Shown here: one piece after another, positions 9,552 through 24,459 of the stretch
Numbering within the stretch: the stretch's first letter is position 1
Layout: every line of letters starts with the position of its first letter
Source: Candidatus Scatonaster coprocaballi
GTDB taxonomy: Bacteria; Bacillota; Clostridia; Saccharofermentanales; Saccharofermentanaceae
Direction of reading: 5' to 3'
DNA length: 41,899 bases
Assembly (NCBI GenBank): GCA_018064475.1
Contig: JAGHVD010000060.1
Coordinates: forward strand, 1 to 41,899
The notes under the pieces: model-generated
What the model was told of the DNA's origin: nothing
The model's database searches: none
The model's input: only the letters and a program-made list of their open reading frames with translations
Translations under genes and position numbers: made by a program

Positions 9552-9711
9552 CAAAACTTGTGAGAGAAGGCGGGGGACTGGACGCGGACGACCTGAGGAA
9601 AAGTGATTGAAATTTTCGATAAAAATGCAAATCGCGCTTATATCATATTGATTTTGCAGGACAAAAAATCGTTCAATAAGCATACAGTTCTTTTACAAAG
9701 GAGGAATGAGC

Positions 9712-10509
9712 ATGATGGATCGTTTTCAGCGTGAAGTAATGAATCGAAGAATATGCCTTGAACGGGTGATTCGTTCGGCGGAGGACAAGCTTGGCAAAGC
9801 GCCACCAGGCTCGCTTCGTGTCGATGGAAGTAAGAAAGTTCCGGTATTTTATGTGCATGGTGATGATATGAAGAAGCGTGTCTATATTCCTCGGGACAAC
9901 ATGGAGTTGGTGGAGCGTCTTGCGCAGAAAGCATATATGCAAAGTGTGTGGGAGAAGGCCAACAAGGAATTACGAATCCTAAAGAAGTATGAGTGGTTTT
10001 TGCAGAATCAGCGGGCGGATCTTGTGTATGCTGATTTGAGAAAGGTGAGACAGGAACTTGTGACACCGTTGATAGTGGATAATGAGACGTATGCGAGGGC
10101 GTGGGAGCGGGAGAAGTATCCGACGAATCCCTTCCGTACAGAAGAGTTGAAGTACGAGACCAAACGTGGAGAGAAGGTGCGCTCAAAGAGCGAGACGTTT
10201 CAGGCAAACATCTATTATGAACTGGGAATTCCGTATCGGTATGAATGTGAGTTGAGACTTCGGAATGAACACATGTGTTATCCGGACTTTACACTTCTCG
10301 ATGTGCAGAATCGGCAGGTGATTTATCATGAGCATCTCGGGTTGATGGATAATAATGAGTATCGAGAGCGGGCTTTGCGGAAGATCCGTGAGTATGAGCG
10401 GAACGGGATTTATGTGGGGAAGAACCTGATCCTTACTTCGGAAACGGCGGAGTTCCCGTTCAATCCTGAGATGTTCCGGCGGCGCATGAAAGAGACGTTC
10501 CGTGTCTGA
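9712..10509 (+). CDS. orphan PD-(D/E)XK nuclease-like protein
   Basis: 265-residue cytosolic protein. Its N-terminal half (1-150) is highly charged and helical. The C-terminal half carries what looks like a PD-(D/E)XK core: SKSE with E161, then a Tyr/Arg-rich strand, then PDFTLLD with D192, then VIYHEHLG with E207. The closing GIYVGKNLILTSET is a typical last strand. Many restriction and repair nucleases share this core, but the usual Lys of the E-x-K motif is His here (EHL), so activity is uncertain. No methyltransferase or helicase lies beside it. The ATG at 9712 is chosen because AAGGAGG ends 7 nt upstream; the ATG at 9706 is too close. The gene ends 47 nt before the 63-bp hairpin array. 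Confidence 0.6.
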   Translation: MMDRFQREVMNRRICLERVIRSAEDKLGKAPPGSLRVDGSKKVPVFYVHGDDMKKRVYIPRDNMELVERLAQKAYMQSVWEKANKELRILKKYEWFLQNQRADLVYADLRKVRQELVTPLIVDNETYARAWEREKYPTNPFRTEELKYETKRGEKVRSKSETFQANIYYELGIPYRYECELRLRNEHMCYPDFTLLDVQNRQVIYHEHLGLMDNNEYRERALRKIREYERNGIYVGKNLILTSETAEFPFNPEMFRRRMKETFRV

Positions 10510-19252: not shown

Positions 19253-19285
19253 TTACGGATCGAATCGAAACTGTTGAGAAAATGA

Positions 19286-19330
19286 GGGCTGTCTTCCGAA
19301 GTGATGGATCACTTCGAGGCGGCCCTTCTT
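19286..19330 (+). terminator. terminator of the YugP-like gene
   Basis: The inner helix CGAAGTGAT (19297-19305) with ATCACTTCG (19308-19316) is perfect with a 2-nt tip, so a few tip pairs must open. The outer helix joins GGGC (19286-19289) to GCCC (19322-19325), followed by TTCTTCTT. Same two-storey design as the pgk-tpiA terminator. Confidence 0.75.
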
Positions 19331-19356
19331 CTTAGGAGGAAAAGCCGATCGGAAGA

Positions 19357-19430
19357 AACGAACGAACTGTCGGTTATGGTCACTTTATTTTCTAAAAAAG
19401 GGCAACTACTCATATAAAATATAGATTTAC
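19357..19430 (+). promoter_or_regulatory. adhesin control region: dyad plus conserved block
   Basis: An 18-bp dyad at 19357-19374 (AACGA, 8 nt, TCGGT), then exactly 27 nt, then a 29-bp block at 19402-19430 that begins GCAACTACTCATATA and ends GATTTAC. The identical arrangement precedes the sortase gene at 24459-24386: the dyads match at 16 of 18 positions when read on the plus strand and the blocks at 26 of 29. The block probably contains the -10, but no normal -35 is present, which suggests an activator or an alternative sigma factor. The block ends 60 nt before the ATG. Confidence 0.7.
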
Positions 19431-19490
19431 ATTTCTCTTCGCAAGTAAGATACGAACACATTCGAAAAATGCTTAAAGGAGAGAACGATC

Positions 19491-22400
19491 ATGACACATT
19501 TTCAATCGACCAAAACACTGAAATCCAAGCGTTTTCTGGCATTTCTGCTACTTGTGTTCTTCTTGTCCTCGGTGCTTCCATTTGTATGGTTCAGCCGAGC
19601 CCTTCGGGCAGAGGAACCGTTGCCGGAAACCAACAATCATGTCTTCCACGATTCAGAGTATTTCGAACTCTACCATGTGGTGAACGGCGAGACGGTTCCG
19701 AAGAAACTGGAGTATCTCTTTGCCGAGACGACAACGGCAGGGAAGATGACCCCGGTCTATTGCGTGCGCGCCGGTGCGCCGACACCGGAGAACGGAAGCA
19801 TCCAGCCTGCGGTGATGCACGATTCGGCCGCGGCGGCGCTTCTTGGAAAGATCCAGTATATCATCGAGATGGACGAGTCTTCCTTCCAGCTTCCCGACAC
19901 GGTGAATAATCACCCGCACATTCACTATTGCGTGCGGCAGATCCTCATCTGGAACCTGATCCATCTTTACGAAGGCAGCCTGAGCAGTAGTTCCAAGCAG
20001 TACTTCAGTGGAATCGACATTGACACCTTTGTAGATGGGGAAGGGAGTGGTCCGACCGCGGTAAAAATACTTGCGGAGGCGAAGCGGTTGTGGTCTGTCT
20101 ACAATCAGGCAGGACGTCCTTCGAAGGCCGGTGCCTATGTGCCGAACTATCAGGCCAAGATCGAGCAGGCATCGTCGCTCACCTACGATGCAAGTACGCA
20201 CAGCTACTTCGCGAAATTCTCTGTACAGGTGGAAGAGACGGTGCGCGGCAATGCCGGTGGTTCTTTCCGATTCTCTGAAATGACAGGCGGAACTGTCTAT
20301 CTCACAGATGCTACCGGCAAAGCGGTGCGAGTAGTCACGACCAACGAGACATTTCCTTCCGGCAGCACCTTCCAGATTCGGGGAAAGTGGAGTGAACTTC
20401 ACGCGAACGGCCAGTCTCGTGATATGGGCGTGACGGTGGAGGCCGTGGACAATGCTTCTAACACACGATCCCAGCTGATGTATGGTTACTTCTTCGACTC
20501 CAGTCTGACGGCCAGTGGCTTATCACGGCAGACCTATGTGGGCTGGCACGAGAGTTCAGACAAGCGATTCACTGGCACATCTAGAAAATGGGAAATAGGA
20601 ACTAATCGCGTGGAGCTATCCAAACGAGCGGTTTTTCAGGATATGAAGGTGCCGGAAGAAGGCGCGACTTTCGAAATCTATCCTGCCGACTATGCTAATC
20701 TTCAGCAGGCCCAGGCGGACGGCATCGGCTTCCGGTGCGTCTCCAATGCCAAGGGCGAGATCGTCGAAGAGAAGACGGGCACGGCGTTACAGCTTCCTAA
20801 GGGCCAGTACACGATCCGCCAGATCAGCACCCCCACCGGCACAAAGACCATGACCCCGAATCCAAGTGCTTTTACCGTAGTAGATGGGAAAAGCACCTCG
20901 GCCACTTTCGAAGATGAGATGGCGGCGGGAAGACTGGCGATCCTGAAGAAAGTACAGACCGGGTACGATGTGTATGCGGAAACGGCGTCGGAGGATCTGG
21001 CGCCGGAGTCCAATGCGGAATTTCAGGTGTGGAATACAGCCTATGATTCCTATGACCAGGCGCCCGCGGCGTACCGCGATGTGCTGGCCACAGATGCGCA
21101 TGGATATGCGATGTCGAAACTCCTTCCTTATGGCGAATATCGGGTTCACCAGATCGAGTCGGAAGCAACGAAGTACACCTATACATGCGAAGACTCGACG
21201 GTGAGCATTCGTGGAACCGGTTCGCCGGATTCACCGGAAAAAACACTGACGCTCATCGATCGGCAGTATGAGTTGAAGATCCAGATCCGGAAAGTGGATG
21301 AGCGCACGGGTGAGGTGATCCCTGCAGCGGGTGTGAAGTTCCAGGTCCTAGATCAGGAGGAGAACGTACTGAAAGATTGGGACGGATGTGATACATTCGA
21401 GACCACCTCGGACGGCACGGCAAATATTGAGAAACTTGGATTGGCTGTCGGTACCTACTTCATACGTGAAGTGGAAGCGCCTCGAGGATTCGTACGTTCA
21501 GATGAACTGATTCAGATTGACGTACGGAAAGGAGAATCTTTTGTCGGCGTAGGACCACAAAGCGACCTCAAAGCAGTTGATTTTGCCGATGATGAAGTGG
21601 AAGTGTCCGTGGCGCTTCTGAAGAAGGGCGAGGTGCTGACAGGTGCGACCCCGAAGGCAATTGATTGCACGATCGACGTGGACGATAATGGGCAGAACAA
21701 CGATTGGGCGGAACTGACCGGGTACACCTTCGAGTATACCGAGGTTCCGCTGGAAGGCGCTGTCTATGAACTGTACTGCGAGGGTGATGTCCTGGATTTC
21801 TACCGTGACATAGCGCTGCTGGATCCGGCGAAGTATCCAGAGGGTGCAATCGTGATGAGCGAAGATGGAACTACATTTGCACCCTATAAGATGTTTGATA
21901 CAGACGGGGACGGCGAGCGAGAGACACCACTTCGCGCCGGCACGAAATTGGGTGATTTTACCACGGATGAAGATGGTCGGATTCAGGTGGATGGACTTTC
22001 ACTGGACGCCAAGTCGGGCGAAGCCACCTATAAAATGGTGGAGACGATTGCGCCGGAAGGTTTCCTGGTCGATTCCGAACCGGTCATGGTTCATGTGACG
22101 GATGATCGTGAGGACCAGACGATGGAAGTGGTGAGTGTGTCGAAGGAGGTCACTGACCGACGCCAGAAAGCCACACTTCTATGCGAGAAAATCGCTCGCG
22201 ACTATGTGTTCGATTCAGGAAACGGTGAGTTCGTCCCGAGTGAACGAGCGCTTGGGCAGGCGGTGATCGGCATCTATGCGGCCTCGCCGATCTGCGATGC
22301 TTCCGGTGAAGTGATTGTGGAAGAGGATGAGCTGATTGAGGTGATGGTTTCCGGTTCAGACGGTCGGTGCGAGAGCCGAGAAGATTACCCGTTAGGTGCT

Positions 22401-23600
22401 TCCTTCTATATCCAGGAGATTGCGGCGCCTAAGGGATATGTGTTAGATACGGAGAAATACCCTGTTGCGACAGCGACGGAGCCTGGTGACATGACGACGG
22501 AAGTTTTCGTCTTTGCACCGGAGGATGAGATCATTAACGTGCAGTCGAGGGCACATCTGCGTGTGTTGAAAACGGCGGCGGACACGGGACTTCCGATGGA
22601 GAAGGTAGAGTTCGAGGTCTACACGCAGGATGGTCATTTGATCGAGAAACTGGTGACAGATGAAGAAGGCATCGTGGAGACTTCGATGGCATATCCGTAT
22701 GGTACGAAGATCATACTTCATGAGACCAAGACAGATGAACGCTATGCGCTCGGTGAGGACATTGCGGTAGATATCGCGCAATCGCAAGAGACACAAGTGC
22801 TTCTCCCATATCAGGAAATCGATGTGCTGAACTATCCGCTTTCTGAAATCAGGATTGAGAAGCATTGCGGAGATGAGTCGAAAACGCCGATGGACGGTGT
22901 GACGTTCCAACTGTGGATGCGGGGAAATGGTGACGAACCGGATCACCTGATTCAAGAATTGAAGACCGATGCAGAAGGTTTTGCAAGTTTTTACACCGGA
23001 CCCGGCGAGTACTACGTCATCGAGACGGATGTCGGAACTTGGACACGATTCCGCACAATGGACGAGCCGATCTTTGTGACCTGTGAAGAAGAAGGCAGGC
23101 TCTTCCATTACGAAGTGGTCGACGCGCCCACCGAGACCATCGCCGAGAAACGCGCGGCGGCAACCGGTGAATTGCTGGGGCATTGCGGCATCTCGGTGAA
23201 AGATGCGGCGGGTCAACTCTATGACTTTGTCTGGAACGAGGAGACCGGCAGCTACATGAATTGTGCGCCGGATACAGAAGGTGCCACGCAACTTCTCTAT
23301 ACCGGAAATGATCCGGAAGCGCCACAGTTCGGCAAGGTGACGATCCTGGGACTTACGTCCGGTGACTATGAGATCTTCGAAGTGGAAGCACCGGAGGGAT
23401 ATCGCAATGACAGTGAATCCATGCCGGTCAAGGTTCAGAACACCAAGGTGCTGGGCGCCACACGCTTGTACGATACGGTCAAGACGTCTGAGACCGACCT
23501 GATCCGAGGAATCGGCTGGTGTTCCTTCTTCGGCCTATCGAGTAGCACATGTTTCGGTCTCGCCGTTTTGGAGTTTATCCGGATCGGTAAGAAGAGATGA
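19491..23600 (+). CDS. thioester-domain and prealbumin-repeat surface adhesin
   Basis: 1369 residues. Signal peptide 1 to about 41 (hydrophobic stretch, then SRALRAEE). An N-terminal thioester-like domain (about 45-210) follows. Cys91 (PVYCVRAG) and Gln150 (YCVRQILIWNLI) are the expected partners of an internal Cys-Gln thioester, which in streptococcal adhesins forms a covalent bond with the host surface. From about 370 come roughly eight SpaA/Cna-B prealbumin-like modules marked by AP-x-G-F/Y turns (near 661, 852, 976 and 1298), probably with isopeptide cross-links. The C-terminus has a hydrophobic helix and a basic tail (IGKKR), but no LPXTG; the sequence before the helix is KTSETDLIRGIGW. 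AAAGGAG precedes the ATG. A sortase gene converges on it 13 nt away and shares its promoter design. Confidence 0.88.
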   Translation: MTHFQSTKTLKSKRFLAFLLLVFFLSSVLPFVWFSRALRAEEPLPETNNHVFHDSEYFELYHVVNGETVPKKLEYLFAETTTAGKMTPVYCVRAGAPTPENGSIQPAVMHDSAAAALLGKIQYIIEMDESSFQLPDTVNNHPHIHYCVRQILIWNLIHLYEGSLSSSSKQYFSGIDIDTFVDGEGSGPTAVKILAEAKRLWSVYNQAGRPSKAGAYVPNYQAKIEQASSLTYDASTHSYFAKFSVQVEETVRGNAGGSFRFSEMTGGTVYLTDATGKAVRVVTTNETFPSGSTFQIRGKWSELHANGQSRDMGVTVEAVDNASNTRSQLMYGYFFDSSLTASGLSRQTYVGWHESSDKRFTGTSRKWEIGTNRVELSKRAVFQDMKVPEEGATFEIYPADYANLQQAQADGIGFRCVSNAKGEIVEEKTGTALQLPKGQYTIRQISTPTGTKTMTPNPSAFTVVDGKSTSATFEDEMAAGRLAILKKVQTGYDVYAETASEDLAPESNAEFQVWNTAYDSYDQAPAAYRDVLATDAHGYAMSKLLPYGEYRVHQIESEATKYTYTCEDSTVSIRGTGSPDSPEKTLTLIDRQYELKIQIRKVDERTGEVIPAAGVKFQVLDQEENVLKDWDGCDTFETTSDGTANIEKLGLAVGTYFIREVEAPRGFVRSDELIQIDVRKGESFVGVGPQSDLKAVDFADDEVEVSVALLKKGEVLTGATPKAIDCTIDVDDNGQNNDWAELTGYTFEYTEVPLEGAVYELYCEGDVLDFYRDIALLDPAKYPEGAIVMSEDGTTFAPYKMFDTDGDGERETPLRAGTKLGDFTTDEDGRIQVDGLSLDAKSGEATYKMVETIAPEGFLVDSEPVMVHVTDDREDQTMEVVSVSKEVTDRRQKATLLCEKIARDYVFDSGNGEFVPSERALGQAVIGIYAASPICDASGEVIVEEDELIEVMVSGSDGRCESREDYPLGASFYIQEIAAPKGYVLDTEKYPVATATEPGDMTTEVFVFAPEDEIINVQSRAHLRVLKTAADTGLPMEKVEFEVYTQDGHLIEKLVTDEEGIVETSMAYPYGTKIILHETKTDERYALGEDIAVDIAQSQETQVLLPYQEIDVLNYPLSEIRIEKHCGDESKTPMDGVTFQLWMRGNGDEPDHLIQELKTDAEGFASFYTGPGEYYVIETDVGTWTRFRTMDEPIFVTCEEEGRLFHYEVVDAPTETIAEKRAAATGELLGHCGISVKDAAGQLYDFVWNEETGSYMNCAPDTEGATQLLYTGNDPEAPQFGKVTILGLTSGDYEIFEVEAPEGYRNDSESMPVKVQNTKVLGATRLYDTVKTSETDLIRGIGWCSFFGLSSSTCFGLAVLEFIRIGKKR

Positions 23601-23613
23601 TTCCAATGGAAGG

Positions 23614-24339
23614 CTACTCATCCGTAAGAAGGTGACCGCGGAGAATGAGCCGGTGCGATCCAACGCCGGTCGGTGTACAGGTGACGAGGGTGATTCGAGA
23701 AGAGTCGCCCTCGTTCTGTATGTAGCGGGAAAGATCCGCGGGAGAGATGGTCAGGATCTCGTCGACGACGTACTCATAGGACTCGCCGCCGTGCGACACC
23801 AGGATGAGGCTCCCCAATTCCACCTCGCCCAGACGGTTGAAGAGTGAGCCGTATTGCTTCATGCGATGCCCGAAGATCACGAGGTTGCCAAATTCACCGG
23901 CATCAGCGGAGAGCGGCATCCGTCCTGCACCATAGCGGAGTTCCACCACGCCGGCACCGTCCAGAAGCGGAAGTTCGCAGTCGATCGAAGGAATCGAGAT
24001 CGTACCGTAGGCAACAAGGGTATAGCTATCTTCCGCTTCAGTTGAGGGAGAAGAAGCACCAGGCTCGGCGTCCGGTGCGGGGACGGTTTCATGTGGCCGA
24101 ACGGTGGTGGAAGGCCCTTCGTATTCGTCTTCTCCCGATACGGCAAAATCACTCGCATCCACAACAAAGTGGGCTTGGTTTTCGAGGCGGATCCGGTCGA
24201 CCATGTCTCGGACCACGGCTTCTCGCTGGCGCTCGATTCTGTCGTGACGACGTTGTTGCAACCCTAGCAGGCCGGATAGTAGGGTGGCGCCGAGAAGACC
24301 GAGTAATAAGATTCGTGGGAAGATTCGATGAGCTTTCAT
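23614..24339 (-). CDS. sortase
   Basis: 241-residue membrane-anchored transpeptidase that cleaves sorting signals and joins surface proteins to the wall or to pilin. It has an N-terminal membrane helix (about 6-26), a charged helix, a Pro/Glu/Ser/Thr-rich spacer (about 65-105), then the sortase barrel from about 105. The catalytic triad is visible: His158 in FGHRM, Cys221 in LVTCTP and Arg230 in GSHRLILRG. The length and the TLVTCTP form fit a class D- or E-like sortase, but class is not settled. The ATG at 24339 is 8 nt after AAGGAGG; the frame continues 10 codons upstream through the binding site. It converges on the adhesin gene with 13 nt between, and the adhesin is the obvious substrate. 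Confidence 0.92.
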   Translation of the reverse strand: MKAHRIFPRILLLGLLGATLLSGLLGLQQRRHDRIERQREAVVRDMVDRIRLENQAHFVVDASDFAVSGEDEYEGPSTTVRPHETVPAPDAEPGASSPSTEAEDSYTLVAYGTISIPSIDCELPLLDGAGVVELRYGAGRMPLSADAGEFGNLVIFGHRMKQYGSLFNRLGEVELGSLILVSHGGESYEYVVDEILTISPADLSRYIQNEGDSSRITLVTCTPTGVGSHRLILRGHLLTDE

Positions 24340-24385
24340 AGGGGACACCTCCTTCTTGCCACCAAGCATATCGACAGTCGCGGAA

Positions 24386-24459
24386 GTAAATCAATATGAT
24401 ATATGAGTAGTTGCATTTCTGCGGGTGATTTTACCAGATAGACCGAACGAACAGTCGGT
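24386..24459 (-). promoter_or_regulatory. sortase control region: dyad plus conserved block
   Basis: On the minus strand, an 18-bp dyad (24459-24442, ACCGA, 8 nt, TCGGT), 27 nt, then a 29-bp block (24414-24386) that begins GCAACTACTCATATA. It matches the region in front of the adhesin in both parts and in the exact spacing. The dyad fits ACCGAnnGnnCnnTCGGT, with one mismatch in the adhesin copy. The block ends 46 nt before the sortase ATG. The dyad is also 111 nt upstream of the divergent tyrS, but tyrS has its own ordinary promoter. Confidence 0.7.

Follow-up and report, generated by a model that had tools for sequence, protein, structure and literature searches.

A regulon box before adhesin, sortase and DNA-related genes of rumen Clostridia, with a Spo0A_C-domain protein as its candidate reader

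A site just upstream of the -35 element is the usual position of a class II activator, and spoIIG of B. subtilis has a class II activator-dependent sigma-A promoter. The ComK regulon of B. subtilis includes rpsF-ssb. The core motif of the 0A box is TGTCGAA (PMC3485338), and spo0A carries a site of its own regulator (PMC12090719).

We analysed a stretch of DNA of 41,899 nucleotides (the window), which is the entire contig C102 of a Candidatus Scatonaster coprocaballi genome (G000; 2.23 Mb, 105 contigs). The regulon described below resembles the Spo0A/0A-box regulon of Bacillus and Clostridioides in the Spo0A_C DNA-binding fold of its candidate reader, in a regulator gene that bears the regulon's site, as spo0A does (PMC12090719), and in having surface and DNA-related genes among its targets, which in the Spo0A regulon stand besides development. 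It differs from it in a shorter protein (about 200 against about 260 aa), without a recognisable receiver or phospho-acceptor domain, and in a box of the form AA-N5-[CG][AT]TATA[AT][AC]AT instead of TGTCGAA (PMC3485338). As in sigma-A promoters that depend on a class II activator (e.g. spoIIG), the site abuts a poor -35 and is followed by a near-consensus -10; unlike promoters of the spoIIG type, the conserved box is very long and the spacer is 17 or 18 bp according to gene class. A single activator is proposed for the rpsF-ssb operon and DNA-handling genes, as in the ComK regulon, but com genes were not seen among the targets and the candidate reader is no relative of ComK.

Adhesin and sortase genes and their upstream elements

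The window contains a gene for a surface adhesin of 1369 aa with six SpaA/prealbumin-like domains (19491–23600, plus strand; PF17802, 3.7e-64) and a gene for a sortase of about 241 aa, counted from the ATG at 24339 (23614–24339, minus strand; PF04203, 4.3e-24). Among the sortase class models class C scored best, yet under every class-specific cut-off. The N-terminus of the adhesin (TPVYCVRAG...HYCVRQILIWN) is similar to a thioester adhesion domain of the Cys-Gln type, with no thioester domain match in Pfam, and its C-terminal anchor, without an evident LPXTG, consists of SETDLIRGIGW, a hydrophobic stretch and IGKKR.

Both genes are preceded by an 18-bp dyad, a linker and a 29-bp block, and direct comparison of the sequences reproduced the figures that a first-pass annotation had given for this layout. 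Read on the plus strand, the dyads AACGAACGAACTGTCGGT (19357–19374, adhesin, plus strand) and ACCGAACGAACAGTCGGT (24442–24459, sortase, minus strand) are identical at 16 of 18 positions; in gene orientation only 11/18 positions agree, because the dyad is an imperfect palindrome that is read in opposite senses. The linkers (19375–19401 and 24415–24441) are each exactly 27 nt long and share 7/27 positions, which is the chance level, and the blocks (19402–19430, plus strand; 24386–24414, minus strand) agree at 26 of 29. At one fixed offset, the chance probability is 2e-8 for at least 16/18 and 4e-13 for at least 26/29 identical positions. The low identity of the linkers (7/27) rules out that dyad and block make up a single duplicated segment; the first-pass annotation had rejected such a segment on the same ground.

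When the whole genome was searched with a 26-mer pattern of the block, the adhesin and sortase sites were recovered together with one site with three mismatches, located before rpsF. The dyad pattern had two perfect matches, those of the adhesin and the sortase, and all other matches had at least three mismatches. No wider dyad regulon was found: in G000, the three-mismatch matches lay, with one exception, within open frames 100 or more codons long. Across the 23 genomes of the genus, perfect matches to CGAACGAAnnGTCGGT were restricted to the adhesin and sortase of G000 and the adhesins of G010 and G016, and the one-mismatch matches, among those listed, were all without the box (the regulator site within the block, described below). 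In G010 and G016, the adhesin dyad CGAACGAAACGTCGGT is likewise separated from the box by 29 nt, with a different linker sequence; the sortase gene of G010 has the box and lacks the dyad. In several further species, the adhesin gene has a terminator-like hairpin at the position of the dyad. For the dyad itself a role as terminator was ruled out, given a separate hairpin terminator at about 19285–19335 and no T run after the dyad.

Judged by sequence and occurrence, the dyad is a real element that, unlike the box, is lineage-specific. The simplest reading, which we consider rather probable, is that it serves as a separate operator for a second regulator; before the adhesin, the centre of this candidate operator lies about 92 bp upstream of the predicted start. 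An operator of a lineage-specific TetR-type repressor or activator would agree with an imperfect palindrome of 18 bp whose arms are ACCGA/TCGGT and which occurs in both orientations, and with the three TetR_N proteins of G000, but we regard this assignment as doubtful; in the upstream stretches that were read, none of the three tetR genes showed a dyad-like sequence.

The first-pass annotation had taken dyad and block together as one dedicated control element of the adhesin and the sortase, possibly served by a special sigma factor. The exact 27-nt spacing, the paired occurrence and the preservation of the spacing before the adhesins of G010 and G016 speak for a two-part element. Against it, all the other sites consist of the block without the dyad, as does that of the G010 sortase, and against a special sigma factor stand the sigma-A -35 and -10 hexamers of 95/96 sites. 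We consider this explanation highly improbable: the block precedes many other genes and the dyad is an add-on. Occurrence before many unrelated genes, which the first-pass annotation itself had named as a refuting result, thus disproves the specificity of the block for the two surface genes, and leaves the combination of dyad plus block standing.

The box, its promoters and its distribution

Searches of the 23 genus genomes with AACTACTCATATA[AT][AC]ATnWG, allowing up to two mismatches, returned 57 matches, and the reversed control pattern returned 6; for a second form (AATCGCGCTTATATCATATWG and variants) the corresponding figures were 50 and 15. As the two forms coexist in one genome and precede orthologous genes, we treated them as one motif with the consensus AA-N5-[CG][AT]TATA[AT][AC]AT. 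The sites were curated by hand, with manual exclusion of matches inside genes (e.g. L008:1503, L004 and L238), and 96 of them were kept.

In these 96 sites, positions 18–23 counted from the box start read TWGnTT (positions 18–20: T in 85%, W, and G in 98%) and correspond to the -35 element. At least four of the six bases of TATAAT were present 17 or 18 bp from TWGnTT in 95/96 sites, and the same test at other offsets gave 6.25%. By the presence of -35 and -10 hexamers 16–18 bp apart, 95/96 sites are of the sigma-A type, and the conserved downstream hexamer of the 96 sites, being TATAAT-like, does not indicate an alternative sigma factor (ECF or other), for which a -10 unlike TATAAT and a characteristic -35 such as AAC, spaced by 16–17 bp, would be expected. 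The 3' end of the block is itself the -35 (TAGATT before the adhesin, TTGATT before the sortase, with the -10 18 bp downstream), so the earlier statement that a normal -35 is absent was wrong, and the special sigma factor proposed with it finds no support in promoters of sigma-A type with spacers of 17–18 bp (95/96 sites). Two other ways of placing the promoter were rejected. TAWMAT inside the block would make an extended -10, but 95/96 sites have their -10 signal 24–25 nt further downstream; an ECF-type promoter with AAC as its -35 is excluded by that position in the same proportion of sites. The box proper spans about -54 to -38 and adjoins the poor -35 on its upstream side.

In the adhesin promoter, the candidate regulator site AACTACTCATATAAAAT (19404–19420, plus strand) is followed by the -35 TAGATT (19422–19427), assigned from the position profile of the 96 sites, and, after an 18-bp spacer, by the -10 TAAGAT (19446–19451), with a predicted start near 19458. 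The sortase promoter, on the minus strand, comprises the candidate site AACTACTCATATATCAT (24396–24412), the -35 TTGATT (24389–24394), assigned from the same profile, and the -10 TATGCT (24365–24370), again with an 18-bp spacer and with a predicted start near 24358. This predicted -10 covers the ATG at 24369 with which the mechanical ORF begins, which makes the start at 24339, behind GAAGGAGG, the more likely one. A third site of the window, the class B box AATCGCGCTTATATCAT (9630–9646, plus strand), was recovered in the search with the second form and has a -35 TTGATT at 9648–9653 and a -10 TTCAAT at 9672–9677.

Downstream of this third site lies a gene (9706–10509, plus strand; start at 9706 or 9712) for a PD-(D/E)XK-nuclease-like protein, whose orthologues also carry the box and of which at least three further paralogues with a site are found elsewhere in G000 (contigs C72, C74 and C49). 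The protein had no match in Pfam or NCBIfam. Its C-terminal half was modelled as a PD-(D/E)XK fold, with Bax1 (Z 8.4), the catalytic domain of I-Bth0305I (8.1), Vsr (7.0) and a VRR_NUC domain (6.5) as best structural matches, and with invariant residues E..PDF..E.H. Since these Z values are middling, we call the fold of the model likely, and nuclease activity putative.

At least ten genes or operons of G000 carry a site. Besides the adhesin, the sortase, the ORF at 9706 and its three paralogues, these are hfq (C84; Hfq identified by Pfam), NAD kinase-argR-recN (C67), rpsF-ssb-rpsR-rplI-dnaB (C32) and the gene of a Spo0A_C-domain protein (C48). Across species, the targets recurring among the 96 curated sites were the nuclease-like genes (28 sites), the Spo0A_C gene (19), the sortase (11), the NAD kinase (11), the adhesin (at least 9) and rpsF (8). 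In the sister genus g15, a box of the sister type was likewise found before rpsF, hfq and the Spo0A_C gene. The box was also seen near the rpsF operon before a gene for a Phd-like antitoxin with a VapC-like gene behind it (L032 and L144; genomes G022 and G002).

The left half of the box varies inside G000 itself (AACTACTC and AATCGCGC), so a single reader must tolerate variation. In the clade of G014, G017 and G019, the left half is AAGTTCGG, AAGTGTGG or a close form, and this change is common to the Spo0A_C gene, the adhesin, the sortase and the nuclease-like genes, as would be expected if one reader had altered its specificity. Taken together, the block is almost certainly a regulon box adjoining a sigma-A promoter. 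The shared control of adhesin and sortase that the first reading had put forward is supported, with the block as the regulator site, and on the evidence of these predicted sites the regulon is common to this genus of rumen Clostridia and to sister genera.

Candidate reader of the box

The box-carrying gene on contig C48 encodes a protein of about 200 aa that matches the Spo0A C-terminal domain (PF08769; E 2e-12, 47 bits against a cut-off of 25), and it is the single protein with this domain in G000. Its model aligned with 1fc3, the Spo0A C domain (Z 14.9, rmsd 1.9, 98 aligned), and with 1lq1 (Z 14.1), and the next unrelated chain had a Z of 4.9. The Spo0A equivalog model TIGR02875 gave 30.3 and 28.7 bits, against a cut-off of 200, and was matched solely at model positions 131–217 and 144–216. 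No Response_reg (receiver) match was found in Pfam; the N-terminal 80 residues contain a conserved IACDD...LIDGRRG stretch and were modelled with low confidence. Of 148 genomes from the order, 141 encode the protein, almost always in a single copy, and a second, full-length protein of the Spo0A type was detected in none of them. We found no description of a receiver-less Spo0A regulon in the literature searched, most subscription journals lying outside it.

The box stands before the Spo0A_C gene in 22 of the 23 genus genomes, the exception being G020, which has the protein and no clear box upstream of its gene. All 6 sister-genus genomes (g3, g14 and g15) have the right half, TATATC[AC]T-RTTG, in place before this gene, and no evident box precedes it in the more distant genomes (L219–L233: genus g2 and other families). 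The presence of the box before its own gene in 22/23 genomes makes the Spo0A_C protein the best candidate for reader and autoregulator, and the position of the box in the gene's own promoter suggests that this autoregulation is positive. These observations are strong, if circumstantial, evidence for autoregulation, in which the protein would bind the box. Around the 96 sites, the 0A box TGTCGAA was present in 2 exact and 38 one-mismatch copies, against an expectation of about 27 for zero or one mismatch; it was not clearly enriched there, and the regulon box has no likeness to it.

This lack of likeness would also fit a box that is read by another DNA-binding protein, for instance a small HTH_3/XRE regulator, with the Spo0A_C gene as a mere target. 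Genes for HTH_3-type regulators carry the box in g15 and g3 (L284, L287, L290 and L291), which makes another reader possible, and a class B box precedes an HTH-like gene in G021 (L165). Genus-wide, however, G021 is alone in having a box before an HTH gene, there without the -35 G that is conserved in 98% of sites, as opposed to the 22/23 genomes with the box before the Spo0A_C gene. Operators of XRE regulators are usually palindromic, and the box is not a clear palindrome. We therefore consider a different reader unlikely; the HTH_3-type genes of g15 and g3 may represent a second regulatory layer or a rival reader.

The position of the box also bears on the mode of action. A repressor bound at -54 to -36 would cover the -35 and hold the promoters off; the end of the box does fall within the -35 hexamer, and in the spo0A promoter of B. 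subtilis the Spo0A boxes act mostly in repression (PMC12090719). On the other side, the poor -35, the often 18-bp spacer and the imperfect -10 resemble activator-dependent promoters, and the location of the box just 5' of the -35 is the typical position of a class II activator, so that repression appears quite unlikely. An activator, as the first-pass annotation had suggested, appears to be the likeliest kind of reader. On these comparisons, the Spo0A_C protein probably reads the box and probably acts through it as an activator.

Proposed regulation and its meaning

As a class II activator, the Spo0A_C protein would bind the box and contact RNA polymerase at the -35; this is the most likely mode since the sigma-A promoter has a poor -35, which the box touches, and a spacer of 17–18 bp. 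Through the box before its own gene it would promote its own expression, and it would switch on the adhesin and the sortase jointly with ssb (in the rpsF operon), NAD kinase-argR-recN, hfq and several nuclease-like genes. The dyad 27 nt upstream of the block may be the operator through which a second regulator tunes surface display.

We tentatively propose, with slightly less than even confidence, that a regulator descended from Spo0A, without its former receiver (phosphorylation) domain and with a different DNA box, has been retained in an order of Clostridia. It would control its own gene and serve as the master switch of a programme other than sporulation, in which surface display (adhesin and sortase) is combined with single-stranded DNA binding and repair (ssb, recN), Hfq and a nuclease-like family. 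If this is true, these uncultured gut bacteria show how a master regulator of sporulation can lose its phospho-switch and be redirected to another box and another set of functions, and the target genes listed here, with the defined box, offer a means of testing it. Whichever protein reads the box, the regulon bears on the timing of adhesin and sortase display in rumen Clostridia and groups a PD-(D/E)XK-like family, itself uncharacterised, with ssb, recN and hfq.
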